Shown here in pieces: positions 44,362 to 64,000 of a DNA stretch of 64,000 bases. Source of the stretch: a virus; IMG/VR virus record IMGVR_UViG_3300020172_002590, positions 17,458 through 81,457 of that record; one strand, 5' to 3'. Below the pieces are notes generated by a model that did no database searches, was not told the DNA's origin, and saw only the letters and a list, made by a program, of their open reading frames with translations. Position 1 is the stretch's first letter. The number at the start of each line of letters is the position of its first letter. A program made the translations under genes and the position numbers.

Positions 44362-44659
44362 CTGTCATTCGCTTTCTTGTTTCTTCTAATATTGCCTGAA
44401 ATTTGCTTTCTGATTTATTATCAAATTGCACCTTGTCTATATATGTCTTAGATTCAATTGCAAAATCAAAAACTAAAACTGGCCCTGACTTTGCTTTGAC
44501 AAAAGATTCAATTGCCTTAAACAACAGTTCTGATTCATAGAATTCAGAGATTGCTTTTGCTACTGGCTCTTGTCTTGGTGAATCTGGGATAAACAACTTA
44601 CTGTGCTTTTTGCAACAATCTTGAAAGTGTTGAATTGTCTGTTCTCCAGTTACTTTCAT
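44351..44659 (-). CDS. Hypothetical protein upstream of DnaB (102 aa)
   Basis: Helical-alpha/beta protein (MKVTGEQTIQHFQDCCKKHS ... KSGPVLVFDFAIESKTYIDK). It overlaps the WhiB-like gene by about 60 bp and has no well-placed SD. A longer start (MITSTRFG) is possible. Position suggests a helicase loader or partner, unproven. Confidence 0.62.
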   Translation of the reverse strand: MKVTGEQTIQHFQDCCKKHSKLFIPDSPRQEPVAKAISEFYESELLFKAIESFVKAKSGPVLVFDFAIESKTYIDKVQFDNKSESKFQAILEETRKRMTDEL

Positions 44660-44900
44660 CTTCCTTAGATGCTCTTTTCCAAATCGTGTTGAGGTAATCA
44701 TACTCTGACATACCTGCAACAACTCCTACAAAATAATCATTTTCTAATGCCATTATTAGGCATTCTTTTTTAACATTACATCTCGCACAGCCAGATTTTG
44801 CATATTCAACATCGTTAAGATCATAAGACAGCCATTTGTTAGCAAACTTATCGTTAGTACAAACTGCCTCATCTCTCCAACTACTTTGTTGTTGCATCAT
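44598..44900 (-). CDS. whiB-like: WhiB-like Fe-S protein, divergent
   Basis: A 100-aa protein. The Fe-S cysteines read SSWRDEAVCTND, then SGCARCNVKKECLIMALEND (C-x2-C-x5-C). The usual GIWGG turn is replaced by FVGVVAGMSEYDY, so sigma-factor or DNA contacts may differ. Second WhiB-type protein in the window, here inside the replication operon. An upstream in-frame start would overlap the 67-aa gene more. Confidence 0.85.
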   Translation of the reverse strand: MMQQQSSWRDEAVCTNDKFANKWLSYDLNDVEYAKSGCARCNVKKECLIMALENDYFVGVVAGMSEYDYLNTIWKRASKEDESNWRTDNSTLSRLLQKAQ

Positions 44901-45084
44901 CCAACTCTTTGAGTTTTGCTTCAATTTGCAAATCAATAGAATCCCAAAGCTTTTTCCAAGCTGCTTCGTCTTCTAAAGATGATGCCATTGTCTTTGCACC
45001 TGCATCCAATCTTAGCGACTCATAGTTGCCAAGATTTTTCGTGATGCCAAGTGATGCCCAAATTTCTACTTTTTCTTCTGCCAT
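44881..45084 (-). CDS. Hypothetical protein (67 aa)
   Basis: MAEEKVEIWASLGITKNLGN then YESLRLDAGAKTM: the type of a small conserved protein beside replication genes in phages. A helical acidic C terminus follows. Function unknown. SD GAGGTAATT precedes ATG. Confidence 0.75.
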   Translation of the reverse strand: MAEEKVEIWASLGITKNLGNYESLRLDAGAKTMASSLEDEAAWKKLWDSIDLQIEAKLKELDDATTK

Positions 45085-46919: not shown

Positions 46920-47363
46920 TTAGATGTTTGGTCTTTTTAATCTATTTTCTATTGGTTTATTTTGAGCATGATTTCTTTTCTTTGTATGAGGTTTTGTTTT
47001 CTTCACAGTGTCCCTCATTTTCTCTTTTCGGCTTGCAGAAGGTTTATGACCTTCCTTATGCACAGCACTATGCTCAGAGTGTGTACAAAGAAAAAGATTA
47101 TCTAATCTATTATCAACTTTTATTTCATTAATATGGTGAACAGTTTCCCAAGGTTCTAGATATCTACCAAGATATTCTTCCATAACAAGGCGATGTTCAT
47201 ATGCGTAACCACGAATATTACGCGGGTGATCAGTCTTAAGGACTCTTACATACCCTTTATCGTCAATATATTTTCCGCCGTTATAGTTGGCGCTATCTTC
47301 ACCAGATGGAAGACTATCTGACCACTTAACATCTTTTCTTTTAGACGCAAGCTCTCTTGGCAT
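46920..47363 (-). CDS. HNH homing-type endonuclease
   Basis: A 147-aa protein. GYVRVLKTDHPRNIRGYAYE and HRLVMEEYLGRYLEPWETVH then HINEIKVDNRLDNLFLCTHS form the HNH core (His-His ... Asn ... His), with a basic tail (MRDTVKKTKPHTKKRNH). Typical free-standing homing-like nuclease between tail and replication genes. Confidence 0.88.
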   Translation of the reverse strand: MPRELASKRKDVKWSDSLPSGEDSANYNGGKYIDDKGYVRVLKTDHPRNIRGYAYEHRLVMEEYLGRYLEPWETVHHINEIKVDNRLDNLFLCTHSEHSAVHKEGHKPSASRKEKMRDTVKKTKPHTKKRNHAQNKPIENRLKRPNI

Positions 47364-49339: not shown

Positions 49340-52300
49340 TATGTAACCTTCCTTAATGTAAGAGATTGAGTTAAAGATTCGCCATACCCAAATTCTTGTG
49401 ATATTACCCAATAATCTTGATTTGTAAGATCAAATGAATTAAATGATGTAATTCTAATTCTATCACCTAATTGAATTTTTGGGACACACATTGTATTAAT
49501 TGTTATAATTGGAACAGGATCGCTTACTTTTTCAATTATAAAATCAGCCAATTTTTGAGCATGTTCTTCTGATGTGATATAGGGACTTTCAATAGTTAAT
49601 TCTTTCAAACCATACTTACGGATATTTTCAGAAAGTGAATCTTTTTTTTCAGTAATTTGAGCATTGTTCAAAGTAGCAATAACTGGGTTTCCACGAATTT
49701 CAAAAGAAGATATAATTTCGGTTCTTGGGTCTTCTCCCTGCACATAGATATGATTGTCATAATCAACATTTGCTGATGCTGAGAAGATCAATCTAGCTGT
49801 ATACGGACCGCTTTCAAATTTAATTATGTCAACAGTATTTGGTTCATCATAAACAATTCCGGTTGATATAGGATACTTAACCGCAATTGCTGGCTTTTTA
49901 TCATATGTAACTTCATATGATCTAGCCTCTCTTATTTTTGTATTGGCAGCAACATTGCCAAGAATTGGAGTCCCGAACTTCCCTCTTTCCACATTTAAAA
50001 AATAATTATCAGATTTAGAACGATATCTAACAATTTCAGTTTGTCCAGCGCTAGTAAAAGCTAAATAACCAACATTAGGAAATACTGGGCTTGTCGTTGA
50101 AGAAACATGGATTCCATCATGCGATGAGAATATTGGTGATATTAATTTAACAACTCCAAGTGTTGTTTTGTCTTCTACTGCCCATAAAACTTCTGGGAAA
50201 AGTGTAACTTTTGTAACTGCTGATATCTTTACAACAACTTTATTTGTTTGCAATTGAACATTCAAACTGCCATCGATAATATTTGTTGTATCACTAAAGC
50301 TATATTGAATATTTGAATGTTGATCTATTGAAGATTCAAAAAATCTATTATAATGTTCATACCTAGCAAACCCTTCTTCATCTATATAAAATCTTCCTAA
50401 ATCAGCCAGTGTAATTTCATCAATAGCACCTCGTAGATTTTCCTGTTCTGAATAGACATATGGGAAAATTGCGATGTAATCAATTTGTGAAGATATATAT
50501 CTATTTTTAACTTCTTGTGATGTTAGACACTTCTTGTATATTGCAAATTCATCAATAATCAATTCTCTTGCTGTTGATGGAGCTTGCTCTGCACCAGATG
50601 CAACATTGTAATAAGAACCCCTTCCGCCAACTGTGATATCAGATTGACTTAAGACAACATTCCCATTTACTGTACTTGTATTTTTTAAATCACCATTTAT
50701 ATAATACGATAACAAATTACTTGCAGAATCGTAACTTACCAAGATGTGGTAAAATTCAGATTGTAAAAGGTCAGTTGTATCAGAAACAGATGCTGTTGTC
50801 GTTGTTGGTCCTGTTGTTTTAATTTTAAAACCATGACTTGATGTATCATTATAATAGAATTCAAAACCATTATTTGGATTATTATTAGCCCAGCAAGAAA
50901 GATATTCTCCATCACCAGTGGAAAAATGTCCATCATTAAATTTAGCTATTAATTCAATAGTAAAATCTTCTTCTGTAACTGCAATTGATTCATGATTTGG
51001 AATTCTTATGTATGCACTATTTGTTAATAATATGCCAGTATTATCGTTATCAGATACCAATCCAGTTGCATAACTTAATTGAGCATTACTATGAATAAAG
51101 GCATCATTTTGATGATGATTTAAACTAATATCATTTATAGCGTATGTAGTTGGCACAATTCCAGTTAAATTTCTTGATCCAAGACCATCTCTTGCGACAA
51201 CTGAACGGAATTGCGCTGCATTCAGTAATGTTTTTGTTGAAGATATATAGGAATGCAAACTCATTGAAAAATTTGCATTTCCTGGACCATGAAAGAAATC
51301 GATTCTTATCTTATAAGGAACGCCAGCAGTTAAGTTTTGACTAATTGTTGTCAAAGATACAGATGAATTTTCCCCATAGGATTCAGCCAGTAGAATATCG
51401 TCTATGTAAATACGACCTCCACCATTTGAAATATCAAGAATAAGACTTTGTGAGCCTGATGTTTTGGGGAAATAATACCCGTCTACGACTCCGTTAAAAT
51501 ACTTTGTATATGTAACAGAGTTTACATTTCCCAAGAATGAAAAATTAGACAAATTTAGAGCATTTGCATTTGAAACAGATATTTCTGTTGATATTCTAGT
51601 TGAGTCTGGGACTGCATAGACAGCTTCTCCTTTTATTCTTTCTTCAACTGATATATTCTTTTCTAGAATATCTGCTTTAATTGTTTTATAGTCGGCTTCA
51701 AAACCTGGTCTCATACCCCAGAATCTGCATCTTAATCCTGGATTAAGAGTTGTCAGCACTCCATTTTTATCAATAGCATCTTCACTAAAAGAATACCTAA
51801 CAACCCCGCCAAGTTGGGAAATCCCCTTGCTGTACGGAAGATTATGTGAATAGTCTGCTTTTGGAAAGTTTCTTCTCAAAACAAGATTTTGGACAGCCTC
51901 ACTCATTGTTTTATTTTCAACTAGGAAACCATTTGTTAATTTTGTTTCAGATAAAAATTTTGACCAATCAGATCCTGTTACAGATACGGTCATATCGCCA
52001 GTTGAGGTTGTCCATTCATCTACATAAAATGTACCCATAGATACATATTCATAGGGATCAAATTGAACAATAGAGCCAGCTGTATGAGAATTTGCGTCAG
52101 TTTGCTGAATTCCTCTTTCTGAGAGACTGATTGTATTAGTTGATGTTACAGCATTGCATAATATAATTTCTCTATTTTCTTTATTTGGATTTAGTGTAAC
52201 AATAAAATTATTATTTACTCCGCCAGTTGGAAAAATATCAGAATTAATAACGGACATGGTATTTGCAGAGTTGCTTAGATTTGATCTAAGAGTAGTTGTA

Positions 52301-53253
52301 GATACTGTATCGTTTGTTTTTTTAATTCTCCAACCAGTTGATATAGTCAACTTTAAATCTTTTTTCATATATTTACCATAAGTTGAAGATGTGTTAAAAA
52401 CATTCCAATCTTTATTGGTATTATCAAGCTTTAATGTTAACTTAGGTGTTTGTGTACCACCTATTGGCAAGCTGCTTTCATGAATATCTCTAGCTCTTGA
52501 AACACTATAATCAATTACATAATCAGTTATATCTACTTCATATATTGGAGATATTTCATGTATTCTTGCACAATCTAATCCGTTTTTTGTAGAAAGAATT
52601 GTTAATTCAATTCTTTTTGCTAAAAAGTTAGATGAAATAGCGTTATTGCTATTTAAATATATGTCCTTATAATAATCATCATCTCCAAAAACAACAGTTT
52701 GATCAAGGAGGTCAATTAAAGAAGCGTCTTTGACTTTGATTCTAAAAGACTTTACCTGACCATAGAATTCAGATGTTGTTACTCTAATTTTGTTAACTTT
52801 TCTTTCTTCAAAAGCAACGGTTACAACTGGCGATGACGCAAAAACACCGTTTGCTTGACTTCTTGTTTTTGACCACCATCCAAACTCAAAATCACCGTCT
52901 AATTTATTATCTTCATCAAGAGTTGTTGGCATACAGTGCCAACTGCCATCAGCAGTAATAATCTTCCCATTTTTATCTAAAGAGTCAGTTACTGCCCAAG
53001 TAAAAGATTCTCTTTCATATCCATTAATTATTTGTCTTTCTGAAAAGTAGTAGCCAACGGAGCCTTCAGATTTTACAACATGAGCATCAGTATTAGTAAT
53101 ATTTGCATTACCTGTTAAAACATTTTCTAATACTAAATGACGACTATCAAGAAGATCTATAAGAACTTTTGGCTTTACATTTTGAGCAGGCGATTGTATA
53201 GCATTATTAAAGTTACTGGACAGGGTTGTGCCATATATACTTTTTGTTAACAT
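49339..53253 (-). CDS. Large minor tail protein with PA14-like and LamG-like domains
   Basis: A 1304-aa tail-tip or adhesion protein. The middle has YYFPKTSGSQSLILDISNGG and GRIYIDDILLAES (PA14-like sugar-binding sandwich). Further on, SAYIRIPNHESIAVTEEDFT, ILVSYDSASNLLSYYINGDL and LIIDEFAIYKKCLTSQEVKN form a LamG/concanavalin-like lectin fold. The C terminus (IRKYGLKELTIESPYITSEE, QLGDRIRITSFNSFDL) resembles tail-hub proteins. The carbohydrate domains suggest receptor binding. Overlaps its neighbours by 1 bp. Confidence 0.76.
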   Translation of the reverse strand: MLTKSIYGTTLSSNFNNAIQSPAQNVKPKVLIDLLDSRHLVLENVLTGNANITNTDAHVVKSEGSVGYYFSERQIINGYERESFTWAVTDSLDKNGKIITADGSWHCMPTTLDEDNKLDGDFEFGWWSKTRSQANGVFASSPVVTVAFEERKVNKIRVTTSEFYGQVKSFRIKVKDASLIDLLDQTVVFGDDDYYKDIYLNSNNAISSNFLAKRIELTILSTKNGLDCARIHEISPIYEVDITDYVIDYSVSRARDIHESSLPIGGTQTPKLTLKLDNTNKDWNVFNTSSTYGKYMKKDLKLTISTGWRIKKTNDTVSTTTLRSNLSNSANTMSVINSDIFPTGGVNNNFIVTLNPNKENREIILCNAVTSTNTISLSERGIQQTDANSHTAGSIVQFDPYEYVSMGTFYVDEWTTSTGDMTVSVTGSDWSKFLSETKLTNGFLVENKTMSEAVQNLVLRRNFPKADYSHNLPYSKGISQLGGVVRYSFSEDAIDKNGVLTTLNPGLRCRFWGMRPGFEADYKTIKADILEKNISVEERIKGEAVYAVPDSTRISTEISVSNANALNLSNFSFLGNVNSVTYTKYFNGVVDGYYFPKTSGSQSLILDISNGGGRIYIDDILLAESYGENSSVSLTTISQNLTAGVPYKIRIDFFHGPGNANFSMSLHSYISSTKTLLNAAQFRSVVARDGLGSRNLTGIVPTTYAINDISLNHHQNDAFIHSNAQLSYATGLVSDNDNTGILLTNSAYIRIPNHESIAVTEEDFTIELIAKFNDGHFSTGDGEYLSCWANNNPNNGFEFYYNDTSSHGFKIKTTGPTTTTASVSDTTDLLQSEFYHILVSYDSASNLLSYYINGDLKNTSTVNGNVVLSQSDITVGGRGSYYNVASGAEQAPSTARELIIDEFAIYKKCLTSQEVKNRYISSQIDYIAIFPYVYSEQENLRGAIDEITLADLGRFYIDEEGFARYEHYNRFFESSIDQHSNIQYSFSDTTNIIDGSLNVQLQTNKVVVKISAVTKVTLFPEVLWAVEDKTTLGVVKLISPIFSSHDGIHVSSTTSPVFPNVGYLAFTSAGQTEIVRYRSKSDNYFLNVERGKFGTPILGNVAANTKIREARSYEVTYDKKPAIAVKYPISTGIVYDEPNTVDIIKFESGPYTARLIFSASANVDYDNHIYVQGEDPRTEIISSFEIRGNPVIATLNNAQITEKKDSLSENIRKYGLKELTIESPYITSEEHAQKLADFIIEKVSDPVPIITINTMCVPKIQLGDRIRITSFNSFDLTNQDYWVISQEFGYGESLTQSLTLRKVT

Positions 53254-54248
53254 TAGACCTCTTCCAAACTTAAATTACACTCATACAAGTATACATCTTC
53301 TGAGATGTATCTTCTAGTCAAAGTTTCACTATAATCTCTTACAAATACTGTATATGTAGATTCCGTATATGGGGTTGTCCCCGACTCATTTTGATTTATA
53401 ATTTTCAACTCATGAGCATCTGGGTCTTCAGCAATGGAATGAAGGAAGTCTCTTCCATGTCTTGAATCAACAGTGTCTTCCATTGCGTTTGGCAAATCAG
53501 TCCAAGCAATTGTGAATTGTTTCCTGCCCGAAGTTGATTCTCTTTTATAATATCTATTTTTTTTATTATTCCAATTAACTGTTTCAACAAAATTTGGAAC
53601 TAAAGATATATCAAGTTTTCTTTGATGATTTGTTAAAGGCTTACCATCTAATATCAATAATGTTCTTATAGAGGTTTCATCAATATATGATGGAGAAAAT
53701 CTAATTGGTGGATTTATTATTGTTCTAGACAATATTGAAAATTGATGCCTTAGTGCTCTAACAGGAGTTGAACCGCCAGGAAAAGATGTTGTTACAGACA
53801 AACTAGATGTAGAAGATGCTTGAGCAATTTTTATTAAGTTAAAAATTCCAGATAGATTAATTGAAATATTAGAATTAGTTTCTGTAATCTTTCTTGCAGA
53901 ACAAGAAATGCTTGACTCAATTGAGACAGAACTTGATGCAAAAGATGTTTTTGATGATGAAATAGATATAGAAGATTCAATTCGGACAATTGCAAGTGGA
54001 ATATATATATCTGCCAATACTGATTCAGTTATTAATTCTATTACAACTTCAGAAGAAGCATTTGTTACCTTGGTAGCAGAAAATGAATTACTTGATTCAA
54101 TTGAGATTGAAGATGAAACATTAATAATTTTTGTTGCAGATGCCGTAACTTCTGTATTAATAAAGGAATTAATATGAATTATTTCAGCACCAATATAAAA
54201 ATCTATATCGCTAAGTTTTGGACCTATTTCATAATATTCTTCGGTCAT
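53253..54248 (-). CDS. Tail protein with repeat-rich N-terminal extension
   Basis: A 331-aa protein. The C-terminal 140 residues (SIRTLLILDGKPLTNHQRKL ... DLPNAMEDTVDSRHGRDFLH ... TYTVFVRDYSETLTRRYISE) match the neighbouring 139-aa protein in order and spacing, so the two are paralogs. The N-terminal 180 residues are Ser/Ile repeats of the type SSISIESSxSxSAxK, a beta-repeat decoration missing in the paralog. Probably a tail-tip or distal tail structural protein. Starts 1 bp after the paralog's stop. Confidence 0.72.
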   Translation of the reverse strand: MTEEYYEIGPKLSDIDFYIGAEIIHINSFINTEVTASATKIINVSSSISIESSNSFSATKVTNASSEVVIELITESVLADIYIPLAIVRIESSISISSSKTSFASSSVSIESSISCSARKITETNSNISINLSGIFNLIKIAQASSTSSLSVTTSFPGGSTPVRALRHQFSILSRTIINPPIRFSPSYIDETSIRTLLILDGKPLTNHQRKLDISLVPNFVETVNWNNKKNRYYKRESTSGRKQFTIAWTDLPNAMEDTVDSRHGRDFLHSIAEDPDAHELKIINQNESGTTPYTESTYTVFVRDYSETLTRRYISEDVYLYECNLSLEEV

Positions 54249-54667
54249 TATTGCTCACCAAGACCTATTGTAACATCATAGTAAGCACAAGCATTACCAA
54301 TATCCCTTCTAACCAGTTTTTCTGTATAAGAATTAACAAAACATGTATAAGTTTCAAATTCATCCGTTGGCGACATTTTTATAGATATAGTTACTGTACC
54401 TCTGGTGTTAGATATAGAATTAAGGTAGTCTCTTCCTTTTCTGCCATCAACAGTTTTATCAACAGTATTTGGAAGATATGTAAAAGTTAGGTTGAAGTCT
54501 TTTTTATTTTTTCTAATGTATCTTCTAAAAACTCCCCTTCCTAGTTCAACATCCGTTCCTGATTGCACAATAGTCATTGAAAATTTTCTATTATGTTCTG
54601 TTATTTCTTCACCGTTGATTGTAATAAGGTGTGTTAAACCTGTTTGCTGGTTCTGTATTGCTGGCAT
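54248..54667 (-). CDS. Tail structural protein (139 aa), paralog of the next gene
   Basis: Directly downstream of the tape measure gene with a 1-bp overlap. HLITINGEEITEHNRKFSMT ... YLPNTVDKTVDGRKGRDYLN ... TYTCFVNSYTEKLVRRDIGN aligns with the C-terminal part of the 331-aa protein. Position just after the tape measure protein suggests a distal tail or tail-tip component. Confidence 0.75.
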   Translation of the reverse strand: MPAIQNQQTGLTHLITINGEEITEHNRKFSMTIVQSGTDVELGRGVFRRYIRKNKKDFNLTFTYLPNTVDKTVDGRKGRDYLNSISNTRGTVTISIKMSPTDEFETYTCFVNSYTEKLVRRDIGNACAYYDVTIGLGEQ

Positions 54668-57600
54668 TATAGACCTCTATTAATTCCTCTATAGGTTGAG
54701 ATAGTTGTATTATTCAACCCAGCAGCCTTTTGGTTTTGCGGGGCTACATTAATATTATAGTCTTTCATCATTGACTCAAACCACTGCTTTTCACCAATAA
54801 AGTTATCAACATAAATATGAACAGTTGAAGTAGAAGATGTTTGTGGCTGTACAGGGCCAGCATATGATGGAGATTTTGGAGTATTAAATCTCATATCGTT
54901 AATTGCTTGAAGGGCAGCAATTCCAAGATTTTTTACAGCATTAGAATTTACAACATATTCTCCACCGTGAAGCATTGCTGGAACGCCTTGTGAAGCGAAT
55001 GCATTAACAAATCCACCATTTGCATAACCACCAATTCGATTTGTAATAGAAGATTTTGACTCCCCGGTTACGCCTCTTGCGTTTTCCATAATTCTTCTTA
55101 ACATTAAATGAGTTCTTGTTCTAACATTTGCATCTCTAAAAACATTTCCCTCACCTAAAGTATCTCCCATCATTGAAGTATAACGATTAAGATATGGACC
55201 CAAGTTAAAATCTATATCATTCAAGTTAGTAGGATTATGTTCTCCACCGAAAAGCTCAAGGAATCTTACATTGGGGTCTAATTTTTGAAAAATTTCTTTC
55301 AATTTAATTACTAAAGCTTCAGAATGAACAGAAGTGCTTCCAGGATAGATTGTATCAATATTATTTGGAACCATTATGTCTGAGTAGACATAAGAAAGCA
55401 TTTTCATTACATCAATTGCAGAACCAAAAGAGTTTCCTCTTTGCAGAACGCCAACACTAAGAGTTTTGTATTCTGGATCAATATAAAATGAAAAATCAGA
55501 TGTGTTACCATAACTTCCATCCGAAAGTGGTTGCCAAGTCTTTATCTCGTAACGATTACCCCTTGCACCACCTTTCTCTACATTTAAAATCATTTTATCC
55601 ATGAGTGCTTTATATTCTTCTCTGCTTGATAAAACCCCTTTCATTCTTGCCATTCTAATTGATCTAGATATATGTATGTTTTTTAAAACTCTTTCTCTCA
55701 TTTGGGCTTGTATCTGTCGTTGGCTAATATAAGATGTATATTTAACCATATCAGTAGGAAGTTTTCTATTAACTACTCTACCCGTATATAAAGCATCCAT
55801 AAATCTATCAAAGTCTGAGTACCCATACATACTAGGAAAACTATCATCTATACGAGAAGGAATCTGTGCTAGACTAAATGCATTTTTAATTTGTTCATCA
55901 GAAAAACGCCCAGATGAACGAGCTATACGCCAGAAATCACTTACTGGCAATGATGCTTCTCTGAACGCTGAACTTCCAGGCTGGACAATAGGCATTCCCA
56001 ATGTCCTATACCACATTCTATTAGCTATATCACGGGTTGAATAACTACGATAAGGATCTGTATAAATGCCATAGAATCTTTGGTGTATTGCATGAGCCCT
56101 ACTGCGTATATTCTGCACATGACGAGAATCAAAACTATATGGCAGTGTTTCTCTACGCAGAACATCTCCTGAGTCAGATGCTGTTGCACCGATAAGATTC
56201 AAAATTCTTCCAGTTTCTTGAGATAATGTTGGTCTCAAACCTGCTGGCATTGGAATTCTTGTTCCTGGGAAGAACTGTTCAATATTAGACGCTTCTTGAA
56301 TTGTTTTTTGCAAATTTGAGACACCCTTTATCCCCTTACCAGCACCACCCATATATCCAGCGTTTTTATCAAAAATTGTTGGATTACCTGCAATTGCTGC
56401 ATAGGAGGCAAGACCCCATCCTAAACGGCTAAGATTACTTCTATTCTTATCAGCTGCATTAGCTGCAGACATTATTCCACCACTTGGAGTAAAGTCCATC
56501 CCAGTTCTAATCATGCTCATGCCCTGTCTTAGAGCTTCATTAGCATAAATAGAGCCAGGGGGCGCTTCATAATCTGATATACCACGGGGATTAAAAACAC
56601 TTGCGTTTTTTGTTGCCTCTGCAAAACCTTTGAAATTATCGGTATATGAACCACTTGTGCCAGTTCCTTGACCATACATTGCGCCAAACATTTCTTTTTG
56701 TAATCTATTCTTAACCGCCCTAAATGGAGAAGTAACAGCAGAAGTGAATTTACCCCAAAGACTCTTTTTCTTCTTTTTTACTTCTTCAGTTGCCTTACTT
56801 GTAATTCTTTGAATCTCCCAACCGTCAATAGCATCAGCCATTCTGAACTGTCCAGCAGATGTTTTATTACCTTTAACTAAACCGCCTTTTTCAAAACTTT
56901 GGATAAGACCGCCATTAAACATTTGATCAAGAGGTATTCTTTGAGCAACGCCTGGCACTGATTGTGGCCAAGGACTTGAAGAAATAATGGAAGGTAATTC
57001 TGGATTTGGCATTCTTCTAAACAATTCTAAAAGTGTTTCAATAGGATCTTGAGCATAATTTCCACTTCCTACATTTGGATACATAAATCTAGAATTAGCT
57101 ATATTCCAATAATCACGACGAAGTGCTGGATTTAATAGAGTAGCTGATGGCATTCCAATACCAAATGGCCCATACGGAGAAAAATCTGGATTCAGTTGAC
57201 CTCTTATAAAACCCATTAAGTCATTAAGTTGTCGGATATAATATTGCCCCGCTACTTGTGCCATCTCAAGTTCATCTGGAGAATAGATTTTTTGCCCTTT
57301 CTTTTTAGACCTTGATCTTGCTTTGACTATTTCTTTAACAGATGCTTTTGTTTTTATTGACTTAATAGGGTCTTTAAGCATATTTAATTCATTAAAGTTT
57401 TCAAGAGCTTGTTGCTCTGTAGGAAAATAACTTCTACCTATGCTAGGTTGAAAATCAATGCTGTTAGGTCTCCAGTCAAATATGCTAGGTGTAGCAACTT
57501 CAATTCGGGGATCTAACTCTGCCATCATGTCACTAAGTTGTCTTGATAGCGCATAAGAGTACTTAGAATAAGAACCATTAGTTATTCTTGTAACATTGTT

Positions 57601-60600
57601 TGGCTTTATAACATTCGCATATACATAAGCTAAAAGGTTAGGAACATCTGTTGATGTAAAATCTTTAAGACCGTATAGACCACCAATATTTAAATGTGTA
57701 CTCCCATCAGCCTGTGGATACATTCCAAAATTAAAAGTGCTACTGTTAAATAAAGCATTTTCTGGCACTTGATTTGCTATATCATAAGGGTTGACATTAG
57801 GTGGGAAACCTTTTCTGACCAAACTAACTGTATGACTCATACCGTCAATTTCATGCTGTAGAGATACATCTTTTAGACCAGGAAATTTAACTGCCTTAAC
57901 CTTATCCGCCTGTGACAATTTCCTAAAATAATCACCAGTAGAACCTCCAAATTCTTTTTCCAGTCTTTCTACAATATCAAATACAGTATTGCTAGTTCTA
58001 AAACCACCAGTTCTACCCAATTTTGATTTCTCAATATTTCCAAGAACTCTTTGCCTTAATAATTGTTTTTGAAGTCCTTGAATATATTTATATTTACTAT
58101 ATGCAATTTGATAATATTCTTGCAATGTAGTTGTGCTCATTGCAGAATTATACGGAACTAAATTATTAATATTCCTTTTAAGTGGAATTATATTTGCAAG
58201 AGCATCCAAGCCTCTTTCTTTAATTGCTGGCAGTATTTGTTTTAATGGGCTTCTTACTAGACTATAAGGTTCTTCACCTCTCAACAACCTTACAGCATCT
58301 TCTGCATACGCTTGATTTCTATAATCTTTACTAAAAGCAAGTCTTCCTCTGATGTAGTCAAGCATCGGAACATTCTTTGTAAGTCTTCTTGAGATTATTC
58401 TTGGCAGAGTTGGATAAAGAATCTTATCTTTTAGACCCATTGTATTTCTTGCATATCTATTTGCAAACATTTCTTGAAATATAGAGTTAGAATATAAATT
58501 GTAAGTATCTTTAACACTGCTAATATCACCAAAAACATCAGTTAGAGGATCATTAATTCCAGCTCCTACTAGACGAGTATCTGCTTGTGCACGAGATCTT
58601 CGCCCCTCTGCAAGATCATACCAAGCTTGACGGGCTGGTTTGTATATAATCTCATTAGATCCGCTTGTTATCCTTTTTGAGCCAGCAATTTGTTTTTTAT
58701 TTAGTAATCCCCTCTTAAGATAGAATAATTCTTCACTTATTTTACGGATTGGAGGAAATTTTGCTTTAAGAGGATTACTTATTTTATTCCAATAGAAATC
58801 AGCAATATCTCCTCTTCCAGTTTTTGTAAATACTTTTGGTACAGTCTTTATTCCTTTACCAAAGCCTTTTATAATTTTTGTTAAACTCATCGTTGGGTCT
58901 AGTCCAGCCATTGCAGCAAAGTCTCCACCCAATTGTGTGGCCATGTAGAGTTTGCTTCCTTCTTTGGATAGGCCAGTCTTGTCAAGACCAAAATATGCAA
59001 GCGCTCCACCAGGAGATAGCACTGTTCCCTTGCCAAGAATGTTTCTACTTCTAGATGCCTCTTCCATAGCTTTTTCGCCAGGGGTTGTTGGAAGGAAGCC
59101 AGCAAGCCCGAATGGACCTCTATCAAGACCATAAAGTTCTCTATAATCTTGTCCAGTTGTTATTGTTAACTTAGCTGCTTTAAGTCTCTGTGCAAGAGAT
59201 GTTTGCATCAATGGGCTTGCAACTAATTGGTTAAAGAGATTGCCATTATTTTGTCTTCTGCCAGTGCCTGGGAGGTACCCAGCAAGTGTGCTACCAAGAG
59301 CAACTCCATACTCTGGGATAAAAGATACACCAGAAATAAAAGATGACGTACCAATTTTTGCAGTGTTCGCAACGCCAGTAACTACTTTGCCAAGTGTTCT
59401 GTCCCAAAGACTCTTTTTCTTAGGAGCAGATTTCTTTGCTTCCTTATTGGCATTATCAATAATTTTTTGAAGCGCCCAGCCATCAATAGCATCAGCCATT
59501 CTAAATTGCCCTGCTGATGTTTTATTATTCTTACCTCTTACTAAACCACCAATTGCGTATTCAAATGGGGTGTATGCCTTTTCTCTTGGGTCTTTATATT
59601 GTTCTCCACTTTTTGTCATAAGTTGAGAAATTGGTATAAACTTACGAATTCCTGCAGAACCAGTTCTTGTGAACCCAATACCATCTCGTTCTGATACAAT
59701 CAATCCAACTCCAAAAGGATGATTCTTATTATTGTATCTATCATTCCTGAATGATTGCGGACTACCGAAGTGGAAATCGGATAAAGTGCCTGCATAAGTT
59801 GCCTTAAGTCTTGCGGCAGCAGTGCCTGATTTCTCTTTTACGCCATATTTACCCTTATAGCCAAGAGACCACATTCTATTATATACAACCATTTGTTGAT
59901 ATGGATCTGCATTATATGGAAAATCAGAGAATTCTAAACCTCCCCATTTTTTCCAGTTTTCATAAGAGATACCAAGACCACCGCCTGCATAGTCACCTAT
60001 ATTATTCCAGTCCTTACCTTCTTTTCTCCAGATTTCTCGCATGTAGTTGTAATTCATACCACCCATTGAGACTTGCCATTCATAAAGTGGTTTATATTTA
60101 CTATTTGCATTTTTTCTCAGTGTATTATAAAAATATTTATATTGTTTGCGAATCACAGCTAGTGTTGTATTAAAATTAGGGTCAGTTCCCATATTTAAGC
60201 CAGGGACTTCTAAAGGATCTTTTAATGGGGTAGGAGGTTTTGCTATGTTGTTAGTAGATCTTAATTCTCCACCTTTTGCAAAGGAATCAATCATTCCACC
60301 GTTTGCGTATGGTTTTGGCTTATATGTACCCTTATTGATCTTGTCCATCATTCCCCAACCGTATTTTTTAACGGCTGAGTTTCTTACTACATATTCACCA
60401 CCATGCAAGATTGCTGGAATTCCTTGTTGTGTTGGACCTTCTGTTGCACCACCCATTGCATATGGCATACCACCTTTAAAATAACTAGATGGAGTTAAAT
60501 TATAAGTACTATCATTTAACAAATACTTTGTTTTATCAAGAACCATTCTTGCAACCGCTCTCGCTTTATTTGCAACAGTTCCAGACTTATTCCAATTATC

Positions 60601-63600
60601 ATTTGTATTTTTAAAAGCAATGTCTAGATCACGAATTGATATATTTTCATTTGTTTTTCTTGGAAGGAAATATCCCAAAGTCTTTGACAAAAGAACACTT
60701 TGATTAGATTGAGGATATGCCCTCCTTGCTGCTGTTAGAATCGCTGTTCTTAAAGAGACAGCATCTGCAACTGTTGGAGCCGCAGTTACAGGAGTACTGC
60801 TATCTGCCCTCATTCCAGCATTATATAGACCTGTACCAAGTGCTATTGACTCTTGGCGAGTAAGTGCCCTGCCCCCTGTTGCTCCCCCAAGACCGGGACC
60901 TGTTGCGCCAGAAGTGCCTGCAGTACCAGCCCCACCAGCAGGATCACCTGTATCAACAAGTGACTGATATTTCTTGTAGATTTCAAAAAGCTTCTTAAAA
61001 GATTCAGATTTAGTATCAATAATTGTTGTTAGCGTATTTGTAAGTCCTTGATACTTTCTTGTTAGTGCATCAATACTTGCATCAATTGTTTTATTCCAAA
61101 CACCAGTTGGACCAAAGGGGTTATTGTCTGCAAGAGTTTTACCAATTGCCTCAAGAGAAGAAGTCAATGGTCCTGATGCATTAACTCCAAGTTGCGATAA
61201 AGCACCGCCAAAAGAGTCCGAGAAGACAGTCCCCATACTATTAGCAATCGCTCTTGCTCCAACAAAACCATTACCACCTTCAATAAGTTGGTTAAGCATT
61301 GTATTGAATTCTTCTGCAGTTGTTGGAGGGAATTCTGTAATCTTTTTGGCAGCATCGGTAAATGACTTAATCATGTCATCAAAATACTTACTTGCTTCTT
61401 GCTTTGCTAACTTAATAGAATCAATTAAGTCTGCTCTATTTTGCTCAGCGACTTCTTTTGCTCTATCTTGATTAATGTCATTAATCTTTTCGGTATCTTG
61501 TGTTTCTTGTCGGGCTGCTTGATCTGCAATATTTCTTGCTTCATCAATATTTCCAGCGTATACAGCCATAGCATAACTGCGTCTGCTATTTATTCTATTA
61601 AGGGATCTTTCAGCCTCTGCTTCTCTTAATCTATTCTGATATTCTTGTTCTTTTGTTAATCTGCCCTCTGCCTTAGCAACATCTTCAATTTTCTTTATTT
61701 GTTCATCATAAATTGCAAGTGCAGATTCTTTTTGATTTTTTAGTACATCTTGTATACTTTCAACAACACCTTGCATTGTGTCTTTAATACGATCTGCAAT
61801 TTCTTGTTGAAGTTCTTTCTTTAAGCCCTTAAGAACAGCAGCAATCCTTTTTGCACCATCTTCTGCTCCATCTTCAAACCCTTGGCCAGATTGATTAGCA
61901 ATTGTTTCTTGAGCATCGTCTGCATCTACATCAACGCTATTTTCATCTTTACCGCCAAAGAGATCAAGTTTGCCTTTACTCTTTTTGATACCACCTTTAG
62001 CAAGTTTATCAACAGCGCCTTTTGCTTTCTCAACTCCAGAATCAATGCCTCTTTTAAGCGTGTCACCAGCTGAGTTAACAGCATTTGCAACTGTTCTTAC
62101 AGTGCCTACATATGCATCTCTAGCATTTTTTAAACCACCTAAAACAGCACCACCTGCTGCTCCTAAGAATCTTCCAAGGATTGGTATTCTTTTAACTTGA
62201 CCTAAAACCCATTCAACAAAACCAAAAAATAAATCTGTTGCTTTTTCAATACCCCATGCCCATGCTTTCATAAAAGCAGTTGGAATTTCAAAAATCAAAT
62301 TAATAATTTGCTTAACAAGGAAACCCATTATTGTAATTCCAAGTTTTACAACACCTCCAAAGACATTAGCAAAAGCTGCTGCTAATGCTTTTAGGGCATC
62401 ACCCCATTTTCCTTGGAAAATATTAACAACAAATTTAACAAGATTTACAATTCCATAAAGATATGGTTGAATTATATTCTCTACCAACCACTTAAACATG
62501 TTTGCAACAAATTCGAGTACTTTTGTTAATCCATTAAAAGCGCTTCCAAGACCGCCAATAGCGCCTTCTGCGCCATCTGCACCACTGCCGAAGGAACTAA
62601 ACAAATCGACAATAGGTCTGACCAAAGATTCAAATGTTGTTTTTAATGTGCCAAGAACTTTTTTAATAGTTGCAAACCCAGAAGCGCCAGCTTGCTTGAA
62701 CTTGTCCATGTTTTTCATAACAAGCATTATTGCAACGCCAAGTGAAAGAATTATAACGCCTATACCAGATGCTATGAGAGTTACCTTAGTAAGTTTAATT
62801 GCATTATTGACTAATCCAAATGATTTTGCAAAACCACCAACACTTGCTTTCATTCTTGCAAAAGCGCCGGGGCCTGTGCCAGTAAAGGCTAGAGTTTCAA
62901 TTCGCAATAATCTTTGTGCTTCTTTTGCTCCTAATAATCCTTTTTGATACATACCAACAGCAGCAGTTGGAGCACCTTTGATCGCAGAAAGACTACTTGT
63001 TAATGCAGAAGATGATCTAGCACCAATTGTGTCATATGCTTGAAGAGCTCTACCTCTTATACCACCACCAGCAATTGAGAGCGCTCTTTCTTCTGAGATT
63101 TCTCTTCCGAGTCTCATAATTCTTCCACCGCCAAGAGAGGAAGATGGAGATGTTCTTGTTATTCCAGTTCTTTCAAAGGCTTGCTGTCTAAGGTTAATTG
63201 CTTCACCAACATCAGCTGCTGATATTGATCTAAAACCAGTTCTTCTTCCACGAAGACCAAATCCTTGTTCAATGTTATATCGTGTACCAGAGGCACCAGA
63301 TCTTCTTAAACCCATTTGCTCCATTGAAAACTCTTCTTCTGCAAATGCTTTACGAGCAGCAGAAGGGATTCTTGCGGTAGGGTCTAGGGGATCAATAATG
63401 CCAGCAGATGTTCTGACGAGTCTTCTTAGTCTAGCAGCAGGAGTTGCCCCACCGCTAAGCATTGGGTCAAGAGTAGGGTCTCCAGATAATGCTCCCCTCA
63501 CAGGCTTTTGAGACATTACTTCGCTTACTAAAGGAAGAGGGGCAGTTGTTGTTTTTTGAAGAACACCTGTCATCTCTCCAAGTTTTTTAGCCATGTTTGA

Positions 63601-64000
63601 GACTGGCCCATCACCACTTGATAATGTTGCAATAAATGTTGCAAATTTACCATTGGTATTTACAACAGTATCGCCCATAACAGTTAATGGCTTTGTTAAT
63701 TTAAGAAGACCATCTCTTGCTGCAAGGGATTCAATTGTCATTGTTTTAAGACTTGGCAGGAAACCAAACAAAACTTTTCCAATGCTACCCATCGCAAGTC
63801 TAAACTGACCAAATACGAAAATCAACGGACCAATTGCAGCAGTTGCTCCTGCACCTATAAGTGCCATTGTAGAAATTAACTTTTTAGTTCTATCATCAAG
63901 ACTGGACCATTTTTCAATAAGAGTCGTTGAAATGTCTGCAATTTTTTCTATTGCTGGCTTTACACTTTTTAGTATGTCGGAAGCAAAAGCTTTAAAGTTA
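54667..64000 (-). CDS. Tape measure protein, partial, with embedded Rpf-like muralytic domain
   Basis: The visible part is 3110 residues and runs off the window edge; the first in-frame Met at 63867 is internal (upstream reads WSSLDDRTKKLIST). The N-terminal region has TP901-type tape-measure sequence, hydrophobic helices (GVIILSLGVAIMLVM) and coiled coils. Around 59830-60060 lies an Rpf/transglycosylase-like domain: WRKEGKDWNNIGDYAGGGLG (candidate catalytic Glu codon 60019-60021) then FSDFPYNADPYQQMVVYNRM. After it come two homologous modules, each starting with GQFRMADAIDGW. Two HGGEYVV motifs lie at about 60390 and 54950. It sets tail length and helps DNA cross the cell wall. Confidence 0.9.
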   Translation of the reverse strand, partial: NFKAFASDILKSVKPAIEKIADISTTLIEKWSSLDDRTKKLISTMALIGAGATAAIGPLIFVFGQFRLAMGSIGKVLFGFLPSLKTMTIESLAARDGLLKLTKPLTVMGDTVVNTNGKFATFIATLSSGDGPVSNMAKKLGEMTGVLQKTTTAPLPLVSEVMSQKPVRGALSGDPTLDPMLSGGATPAARLRRLVRTSAGIIDPLDPTARIPSAARKAFAEEEFSMEQMGLRRSGASGTRYNIEQGFGLRGRRTGFRSISAADVGEAINLRQQAFERTGITRTSPSSSLGGGRIMRLGREISEERALSIAGGGIRGRALQAYDTIGARSSSALTSSLSAIKGAPTAAVGMYQKGLLGAKEAQRLLRIETLAFTGTGPGAFARMKASVGGFAKSFGLVNNAIKLTKVTLIASGIGVIILSLGVAIMLVMKNMDKFKQAGASGFATIKKVLGTLKTTFESLVRPIVDLFSSFGSGADGAEGAIGGLGSAFNGLTKVLEFVANMFKWLVENIIQPYLYGIVNLVKFVVNIFQGKWGDALKALAAAFANVFGGVVKLGITIMGFLVKQIINLIFEIPTAFMKAWAWGIEKATDLFFGFVEWVLGQVKRIPILGRFLGAAGGAVLGGLKNARDAYVGTVRTVANAVNSAGDTLKRGIDSGVEKAKGAVDKLAKGGIKKSKGKLDLFGGKDENSVDVDADDAQETIANQSGQGFEDGAEDGAKRIAAVLKGLKKELQQEIADRIKDTMQGVVESIQDVLKNQKESALAIYDEQIKKIEDVAKAEGRLTKEQEYQNRLREAEAERSLNRINSRRSYAMAVYAGNIDEARNIADQAARQETQDTEKINDINQDRAKEVAEQNRADLIDSIKLAKQEASKYFDDMIKSFTDAAKKITEFPPTTAEEFNTMLNQLIEGGNGFVGARAIANSMGTVFSDSFGGALSQLGVNASGPLTSSLEAIGKTLADNNPFGPTGVWNKTIDASIDALTRKYQGLTNTLTTIIDTKSESFKKLFEIYKKYQSLVDTGDPAGGAGTAGTSGATGPGLGGATGGRALTRQESIALGTGLYNAGMRADSSTPVTAAPTVADAVSLRTAILTAARRAYPQSNQSVLLSKTLGYFLPRKTNENISIRDLDIAFKNTNDNWNKSGTVANKARAVARMVLDKTKYLLNDSTYNLTPSSYFKGGMPYAMGGATEGPTQQGIPAILHGGEYVVRNSAVKKYGWGMMDKINKGTYKPKPYANGGMIDSFAKGGELRSTNNIAKPPTPLKDPLEVPGLNMGTDPNFNTTLAVIRKQYKYFYNTLRKNANSKYKPLYEWQVSMGGMNYNYMREIWRKEGKDWNNIGDYAGGGLGISYENWKKWGGLEFSDFPYNADPYQQMVVYNRMWSLGYKGKYGVKEKSGTAAARLKATYAGTLSDFHFGSPQSFRNDRYNNKNHPFGVGLIVSERDGIGFTRTGSAGIRKFIPISQLMTKSGEQYKDPREKAYTPFEYAIGGLVRGKNNKTSAGQFRMADAIDGWALQKIIDNANKEAKKSAPKKKSLWDRTLGKVVTGVANTAKIGTSSFISGVSFIPEYGVALGSTLAGYLPGTGRRQNNGNLFNQLVASPLMQTSLAQRLKAAKLTITTGQDYRELYGLDRGPFGLAGFLPTTPGEKAMEEASRSRNILGKGTVLSPGGALAYFGLDKTGLSKEGSKLYMATQLGGDFAAMAGLDPTMSLTKIIKGFGKGIKTVPKVFTKTGRGDIADFYWNKISNPLKAKFPPIRKISEELFYLKRGLLNKKQIAGSKRITSGSNEIIYKPARQAWYDLAEGRRSRAQADTRLVGAGINDPLTDVFGDISSVKDTYNLYSNSIFQEMFANRYARNTMGLKDKILYPTLPRIISRRLTKNVPMLDYIRGRLAFSKDYRNQAYAEDAVRLLRGEEPYSLVRSPLKQILPAIKERGLDALANIIPLKRNINNLVPYNSAMSTTTLQEYYQIAYSKYKYIQGLQKQLLRQRVLGNIEKSKLGRTGGFRTSNTVFDIVERLEKEFGGSTGDYFRKLSQADKVKAVKFPGLKDVSLQHEIDGMSHTVSLVRKGFPPNVNPYDIANQVPENALFNSSTFNFGMYPQADGSTHLNIGGLYGLKDFTSTDVPNLLAYVYANVIKPNNVTRITNGSYSKYSYALSRQLSDMMAELDPRIEVATPSIFDWRPNSIDFQPSIGRSYFPTEQQALENFNELNMLKDPIKSIKTKASVKEIVKARSRSKKKGQKIYSPDELEMAQVAGQYYIRQLNDLMGFIRGQLNPDFSPYGPFGIGMPSATLLNPALRRDYWNIANSRFMYPNVGSGNYAQDPIETLLELFRRMPNPELPSIISSSPWPQSVPGVAQRIPLDQMFNGGLIQSFEKGGLVKGNKTSAGQFRMADAIDGWEIQRITSKATEEVKKKKKSLWGKFTSAVTSPFRAVKNRLQKEMFGAMYGQGTGTSGSYTDNFKGFAEATKNASVFNPRGISDYEAPPGSIYANEALRQGMSMIRTGMDFTPSGGIMSAANAADKNRSNLSRLGWGLASYAAIAGNPTIFDKNAGYMGGAGKGIKGVSNLQKTIQEASNIEQFFPGTRIPMPAGLRPTLSQETGRILNLIGATASDSGDVLRRETLPYSFDSRHVQNIRSRAHAIHQRFYGIYTDPYRSYSTRDIANRMWYRTLGMPIVQPGSSAFREASLPVSDFWRIARSSGRFSDEQIKNAFSLAQIPSRIDDSFPSMYGYSDFDRFMDALYTGRVVNRKLPTDMVKYTSYISQRQIQAQMRERVLKNIHISRSIRMARMKGVLSSREEYKALMDKMILNVEKGGARGNRYEIKTWQPLSDGSYGNTSDFSFYIDPEYKTLSVGVLQRGNSFGSAIDVMKMLSYVYSDIMVPNNIDTIYPGSTSVHSEALVIKLKEIFQKLDPNVRFLELFGGEHNPTNLNDIDFNLGPYLNRYTSMMGDTLGEGNVFRDANVRTRTHLMLRRIMENARGVTGESKSSITNRIGGYANGGFVNAFASQGVPAMLHGGEYVVNSNAVKNLGIAALQAINDMRFNTPKSPSYAGPVQPQTSSTSTVHIYVDNFIGEKQWFESMMKDYNINVAPQNQKAAGLNNTTISTYRGINRGL

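Follow-up and report, generated by a model that had tools for sequence, protein, structure and literature searches.

An internal slot in a phage tape measure protein holds exchangeable modules and is a candidate carrier of virion-delivered effectors

The window analysed here covers 64 kb of a virus record of 81,457 bases (IMGVR_UViG_3300020172_002590), and its end is the record end. It contains a long open reading frame (ORF; 54667..63999, minus strand) for a tail length tape measure protein (TMP), with 3110 codons visible and the 5' end lost at the contig end. An internal slot of this TMP holds a putative Rpf-like transglycosylase domain and two tandem modules with predicted GNAT-like domains, and in relatives the same slot is empty or holds other contents. 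The favoured reading, to which we assign a probability of roughly 0.66, is that the slot carries effectors delivered by the virion, where we infer delivery and enzyme activity from sequences and structural models.

All TMP features below are given in window positions and lie on the minus strand. The ruler part (residues 1-1179, 60462..63999) matches PHROG 1533 (tail length tape measure, E 7.8e-8) and is 96-97% identical to that of the nearest relative, L002/L003, whose full-length TMP has 3764 residues. The C-terminal anchor lies at 54670..54852, and the last 105 residues of the TMP are identical to those of L003 (105/105). The TMP gene is followed by conserved tail genes, including one for a Phage_Tail_Tip / S74 fibre protein. 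By the PHROG match and the position upstream of the distal tail genes, the ORF is identified as the tail length TMP. The ruler has no close relative among annotated phages.

The slot lies between the conserved ruler and the conserved C-terminal end, bordered by two related GIPAxLHGGEYVV repeats. PHROG TMP families 3547 and 23013 match at the first (GIPAILHGGEYVVRNSAVKKYG..., 60292..60453), and the second (GVPAMLHGGEYVVNSNAVKNLG...) lies at 54880..55029. Besides the two modules, the window slot contains the Rpf-like domain (PF06737, 59872..60003), which is weak here (19.4 bits vs. a cut-off of 27) and above cut-off in the TMPs of L004, L007, L008 and, with its neighbours in frame, L003. Two EYVV-type repeats enclose an insert in the window, L002, L004, L005, L008, L009 and L012; the two repeats are adjacent in L011, and L010 has one repeat. 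A scan with the ruler alone gave 13 loci, and one with an alignment of six rulers gave 80 loci, corresponding to 61 distinct TMP ORFs; the relatives are contigs of uncultured viruses. With duplicates and ORFs cut at the 3' end left out, 38 TMPs extend 63-425 residues beyond the ruler match; a further 18, all complete, extend 1033-2171 residues, and no TMP falls between the two groups. The ruler tree of 58 rows has 38 empty and 20 filled slots, the latter being the 18 complete ones, the window and the 3'-cut L084. The original prediction that the modules exceed the needs of a ruler is borne out, as 38 of the 58 family TMPs lack the insert and keep the ruler and the C terminus; judged across the family, the modules are dispensable. 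Absence from relatives had been proposed as a refutation of an effector role. Many relatives do literally lack the modules, but what varies between TMPs is whether one fixed slot is filled and with what, a pattern that favours cassettes and does not count against a function.

Comparisons of slots and rulers indicate that the slot contents are exchanged as cassettes and that slot and ruler are under different selection. The rulers of L005 and L008 are 99.5-99.7% identical and the last parts of their slots 26%, the C-terminal domains there being unrelated; L067 and L070 share 96% in the ruler and 25% in the slot; and L011 and L012, with rulers 95% identical, have slots of 0 and 697 residues. The reverse case is L066 and L082 (ruler 83%, slot 97%), and L009 and L012 share 43% in the ruler and 75% in the slot. 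Synonymous divergence (dS) between the window and L003 is 0.14 in the ruler and 1.44 in module A, the first of the two modules, and between L003 and L004 it is 1.12 and 0.13, respectively. The ruler tree, built by a quick method, needs nine changes between empty and filled states, at least eight of them on supported branches, although seven is the safer figure because the tip L077, counted as empty, is an ORF cut at its 3' end. Between the window and L003, the ruler has a ratio of nonsynonymous (dN) to synonymous divergence of 0.11 (bootstrap 0.07-0.17); for module B, the second module, the ratio is 0.87 (bootstrap 0.67-1.21), and dN is 0 in the last 110 residues of the TMP. Within module B, the helix-strand-helix core at residues 2850-2899 has a dS of 0.16 and a dN of 0.05, and the stretches next to it have dS 0.12/dN 0.26 and dS 0.25/dN 0.39. 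Some patches may be recombinant, judging from the uneven dS along the module. The rapid change outside the GNAT core fits an arms race.

Module A (residues 1488-2372, 56884..59538) and module B (residues 2373-2999, 55003..56883) have the same three parts: a basic linker, a GNAT-fold domain and, between them, a middle with little conservation. The linkers (NKTSAGQFRMADAIDGW...KKKSLW) span 59362..59532 in module A and 56710..56874 in module B, with GQFRMADAIDGW at 59476-59511 and 56818-56853 and KKKSLW at 59404-59421 and 56755-56772, respectively. Further on, RQRVLGNIEKS (58024-58056), AYVYANVIKPNNVTRI (57583-57630) and YSYALSRQL (57535-57561) of module A are paired with RERVLKNIHIS (55666-55698), SYVYSDIMVPNNIDTI (55348-55395) and HSEALVIKL (55300-55326) of module B. 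All these motifs, on which the original prediction of duplicated tandem modules in the C-terminal half of the TMP was based, were located in one frame of the ORF, and BLASTP supports the duplication with two co-linear matches, one in the linkers (56% over 52 residues, E 4e-11) and one in the domains near the C-terminal ends (34% over 100 residues, E 8e-10). The similarity is far beyond chance, and modules A and B are tandem copies of one module type. Since ~300-450 residues between the two matches are unaligned, the copies are strongly diverged, which rules out a recent duplication. No close relative of modules A and B or of the L008 and L009 modules was found in annotated phages, and a first scan for relatives with module A alone returned none.

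Structure prediction and fold search were run on both modules, and the earlier weak guess of a GNAT-like order holds at the level of the fold, with low overall confidence of the models. The AlphaFold2 model of the module A domain (core strands and helices, 57493..57867) has the element order H-H-E-E-E-E-H-E-H-E. Its best PDB match in Foldseek is a ribosomal-protein-alanine N-acetyltransferase (probability 0.97, E 9e-3). The 50 entries listed by a structural aligner are GNAT-fold structures, apart from one of the related N-myristoyltransferase fold, with Z values of 5.8-7.5, although values below 8 can on their own reflect a mere common arrangement. The closest viral model is that of an uncharacterised protein from a Mycobacterium phage (E 2.9e-4). 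In the AlphaFold2 model of module B the same order recurs in residues 424-535 (domain at 55258..55590; confidence score pLDDT about 50-71); for residues 424-534 the structural aligner gave a best Z of 8.4 and a root mean square deviation of 2.4 over 86 residues (YjdJ), the listed entries being of GNAT or acyltransferase type; plain Foldseek on the whole module gave mixed matches. The two models have alignment rows in common and are thus not fully independent. Both domains show the GNAT core topology (four strands, helix, strand, helix, strand) at modest model confidence, and with the same modest confidence we assign them a GNAT-like fold without filing them as acetyltransferases. Neither model lends support to a plain coiled coil in the domains. 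A profile of the GNAT-like domains had no match by sequence among solved structures, and a profile search of genome contigs with the same alignment gave no confirmed hit. The profile also matches a 5219-residue ORF of L119 (E 1.8e-5). This TMP ORF (L119 1-15657, at least 5219 residues) has a slot with the GNAT-like domain, an Rpf-like stretch and a weak segment resembling the pre-toxin TG domain.

Other slots hold other enzyme-like domains. The slot end of L005, also present in L070 and L074, looks kinase-like from its motifs, and a hidden Markov model of this family gave no informative match among solved structures. It is homologous to part of large phage proteins, namely a 3289-residue protein of Actinomycetia phage DSL-LC01 encoded between the portal and capsid maturation genes (34% over 254 residues), gp78 of Gordonia phage Forza, whose gene adjoins the one for the portal protein, and a Yersinia phage protein with the annotation 'particle-associated'. 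L097, L117 and L005 have the R, STS and ExE motifs of ADP-ribosyltransferases, with R64, T96-S97, E152 and E154 invariant in the three-row alignment. The best match of their profile among solved structures is an ADP-ribosyltransferase (E 0.062), and PF03496 reached 13.3 bits in L097, below its cut-off, with no match in L007 and others. The slot ends of L066 and L082 contain HEMGHGFNLDH and after it SIMDY, which together resemble the signature of metzincin zinc proteases. A domain with VHET/VHEK ... RDT[IV]H motifs recurs in the slots of L009, L012, L069 and L097; it is assigned to no family and may be another type of effector. L069 also matches PF21724 above cut-off in a glycine-zipper stretch; a glycine zipper is required for translocation of the type VI secretion effector Tde1, whose N terminus resembles some TMPs (PMC10240207).

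TMPs are usually regarded as rulers and channel formers. The TMP of siphophages is ejected before the DNA (PMC11099176). Under the favoured reading, the TMP would leave the tail ahead of the DNA at infection and its Rpf-like domain would help to open the cell wall. The slot modules would travel in the tail and reach the host cell, where they would modify host components, perhaps by acyl transfer, and so aid takeover or block defence. The suggestion that the modules are injected effectors gains indirect support from the ADP-ribosyltransferase-like, kinase-like and metalloprotease-motif domains in the same slot of relatives, and from the kinase-like domain in a virion-associated protein and in portal-neighbouring proteins of other phages.

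Several points weigh against the favoured reading. About 1700 extra residues per TMP copy would have to fit into the tail tube. Modules A and B have no significant match in Pfam, PHROG, PADLOC or NCBIfam. The module A domain was modelled with a mean pLDDT of 58 (about 53-86 in residues 101-200) and the full module B with one of 41; of the latter model only the GNAT-like part and a few helices are readable, most of the remainder being below 50. Catalysis by the module domains is doubtful, because the GNAT Pfam model PF00583 has no match in nine records and the [QR]xxGx[GA] acetyl-CoA loop between strand 4 and helix 3 is absent from all seven aligned domains (family members from the window, L003, L004 and L008), in which [NP]GSxSxxS at the junction of strand 5 and helix 4 and a DP are conserved instead. 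The high dN/dS of module B could reflect relaxed constraint or patchy recombination.

The strongest of the alternatives, in our view still unlikely, is that the modules only help to breach the envelope, as enzymes, spacers or channel parts that work in the wall or membrane and never in the cytoplasm. The Rpf-like transglycosylase occupies the same slot, and envelope make-up differs between hosts, which could drive the swapping. Some slots also hold glycine-zipper or hydrophobic stretches, as in L069 with its PF21724 match. However, the usual cosubstrates of GNAT-like, ADP-ribosyltransferase-like and kinase-like folds, namely acyl-CoA, NAD and ATP, are cytoplasmic, and the portal-neighbouring and particle-associated homologues of the kinase-like domain also speak against a role confined to the envelope.

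TMPs are made at high level late in infection, and some phages process them. Both facts would suit a slot that works during assembly in the producing cell, in late takeover, superinfection block or folding, and that is excised from the virion protein or has no role there. We consider this improbable: no part of the TMP is more conserved than its end behind the slot, so removal of the slot would mean cutting it out from between two parts that are needed. Least probable of all is that the modules do nothing themselves and persist as tolerated insertions through recombination of the repeats on either side. Those repeats could indeed recombine, empty and filled states alternate and the dN/dS of module B is near 1. 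Against this, each of 18 distinct filled TMPs that are complete keeps its frame open over more than 1000 codons, the GNAT core of module B shows constraint, and several unrelated enzyme-like domain types recur.

Judged by its architecture, the slot works like a polyvalent or polymorphic effector system and differs in the carrier, a TMP, and in the position, which is internal with a fixed C terminus. The polyvalent proteins of phages and conjugative elements are large, multi-domain and thought to be injected with the DNA, and their catalytic repertoire likewise includes ADP-ribosyltransferases, kinases and GNATs (Iyer et al. 2017, PMC5512222). They are separate proteins or fused to MuF or portal proteins, whereas here the carrier is a TMP with one bordered slot; the parts of that paper available to us do not mention TMPs. 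In actinobacterial contractile injection systems, the TMP-related Sle1/Tme effectors combine a TMP-like N-terminal part with diverse exchangeable functional domains (PMC13277306), but they belong to bacterial systems and vary at the C terminus. The MuF-VIP2 ADP-ribosyltransferase fusions of actinophages are also enzyme payloads linked to a structural gene (PMC7302621), although their carrier is a capsid-side protein. Bacterial polymorphic toxins resemble the slot TMPs in having a constant delivery part, a linker and an exchangeable activity domain. The TMP family has the constant part and the exchangeable domains, with a putative delivery role, but its variable part is internal. A pre-toxin TG domain, suspected from LPIxG... 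segments, was rejected, as PF14449 had no match in nine records and reached only 12.5 bits in L119 (cut-off 23.5). No immunity gene was seen downstream of the TMP gene, where the window and L002 have the same conserved tail genes; other places were not searched. Siphophage TMPs with wall-cutting domains resemble the window TMP in its putative internal Rpf-like transglycosylase domain. To our knowledge, they explain passage through the wall and not a GNAT-like, ADP-ribosyltransferase-like or kinase-like cargo.

In a broader form, which we rate slightly above even odds, the TMP would be the general delivery chassis of this uncultured, probably actinobacteria-infecting phage group, with a bordered slot that exchanges GNAT-like, ADP-ribosyltransferase-like, kinase-like, metalloprotease-like and unassigned cassettes shot into the host ahead of the DNA. 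In the literature available to us, no paper describes an effector slot in phage TMPs, although this does not prove that none exists. If effector delivery is correct, a set of first-contact effectors rides in the very protein that precedes the DNA out of the tail. The great length of some TMPs relative to their ruler would then be explained, and phages would have a counterpart to the TMP-related effectors of bacterial injection systems. The location of early takeover and anti-defence factors then becomes testable, and the flanking EYVV repeats together with the length gap offer a handle for finding more such slots.

The host is probably actinobacterial, as suggested by a WhiB-type transcription factor gene (44601-44936, 43 bits) and the Rpf-like domain of the TMP, despite a G+C content of only about 0.31-0.39. 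A motif resembling the module linker of L003 (SSAADFRKADQEG), SAADFRKADQxSM, is present in small basic proteins of other phages (L029 2882-3334, L032 10106-10462, L040, L030 and L047 5693-6208). It sits behind Lys/Ala-rich N termini, in L029, L032 and L047 beside an apparent major capsid gene, and is possibly a virion-loading or processing signal; a search of annotated phages for AADFRKAD as a virion-loading signal was empty. Among the other tail genes of the window, 49342-53253 encodes a large protein with concanavalin-A-like (Laminin_G_3) and PA14 domains, which likely binds glycans. A 331-residue tail-region protein (53256-54248) is conserved with L002 at both ends, but its serine-rich segment, built of SSxSIxSS repeats, is different. 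Between the replication and tail genes lies an HNH_3 endonuclease gene (46923-47363), possibly for a homing endonuclease.

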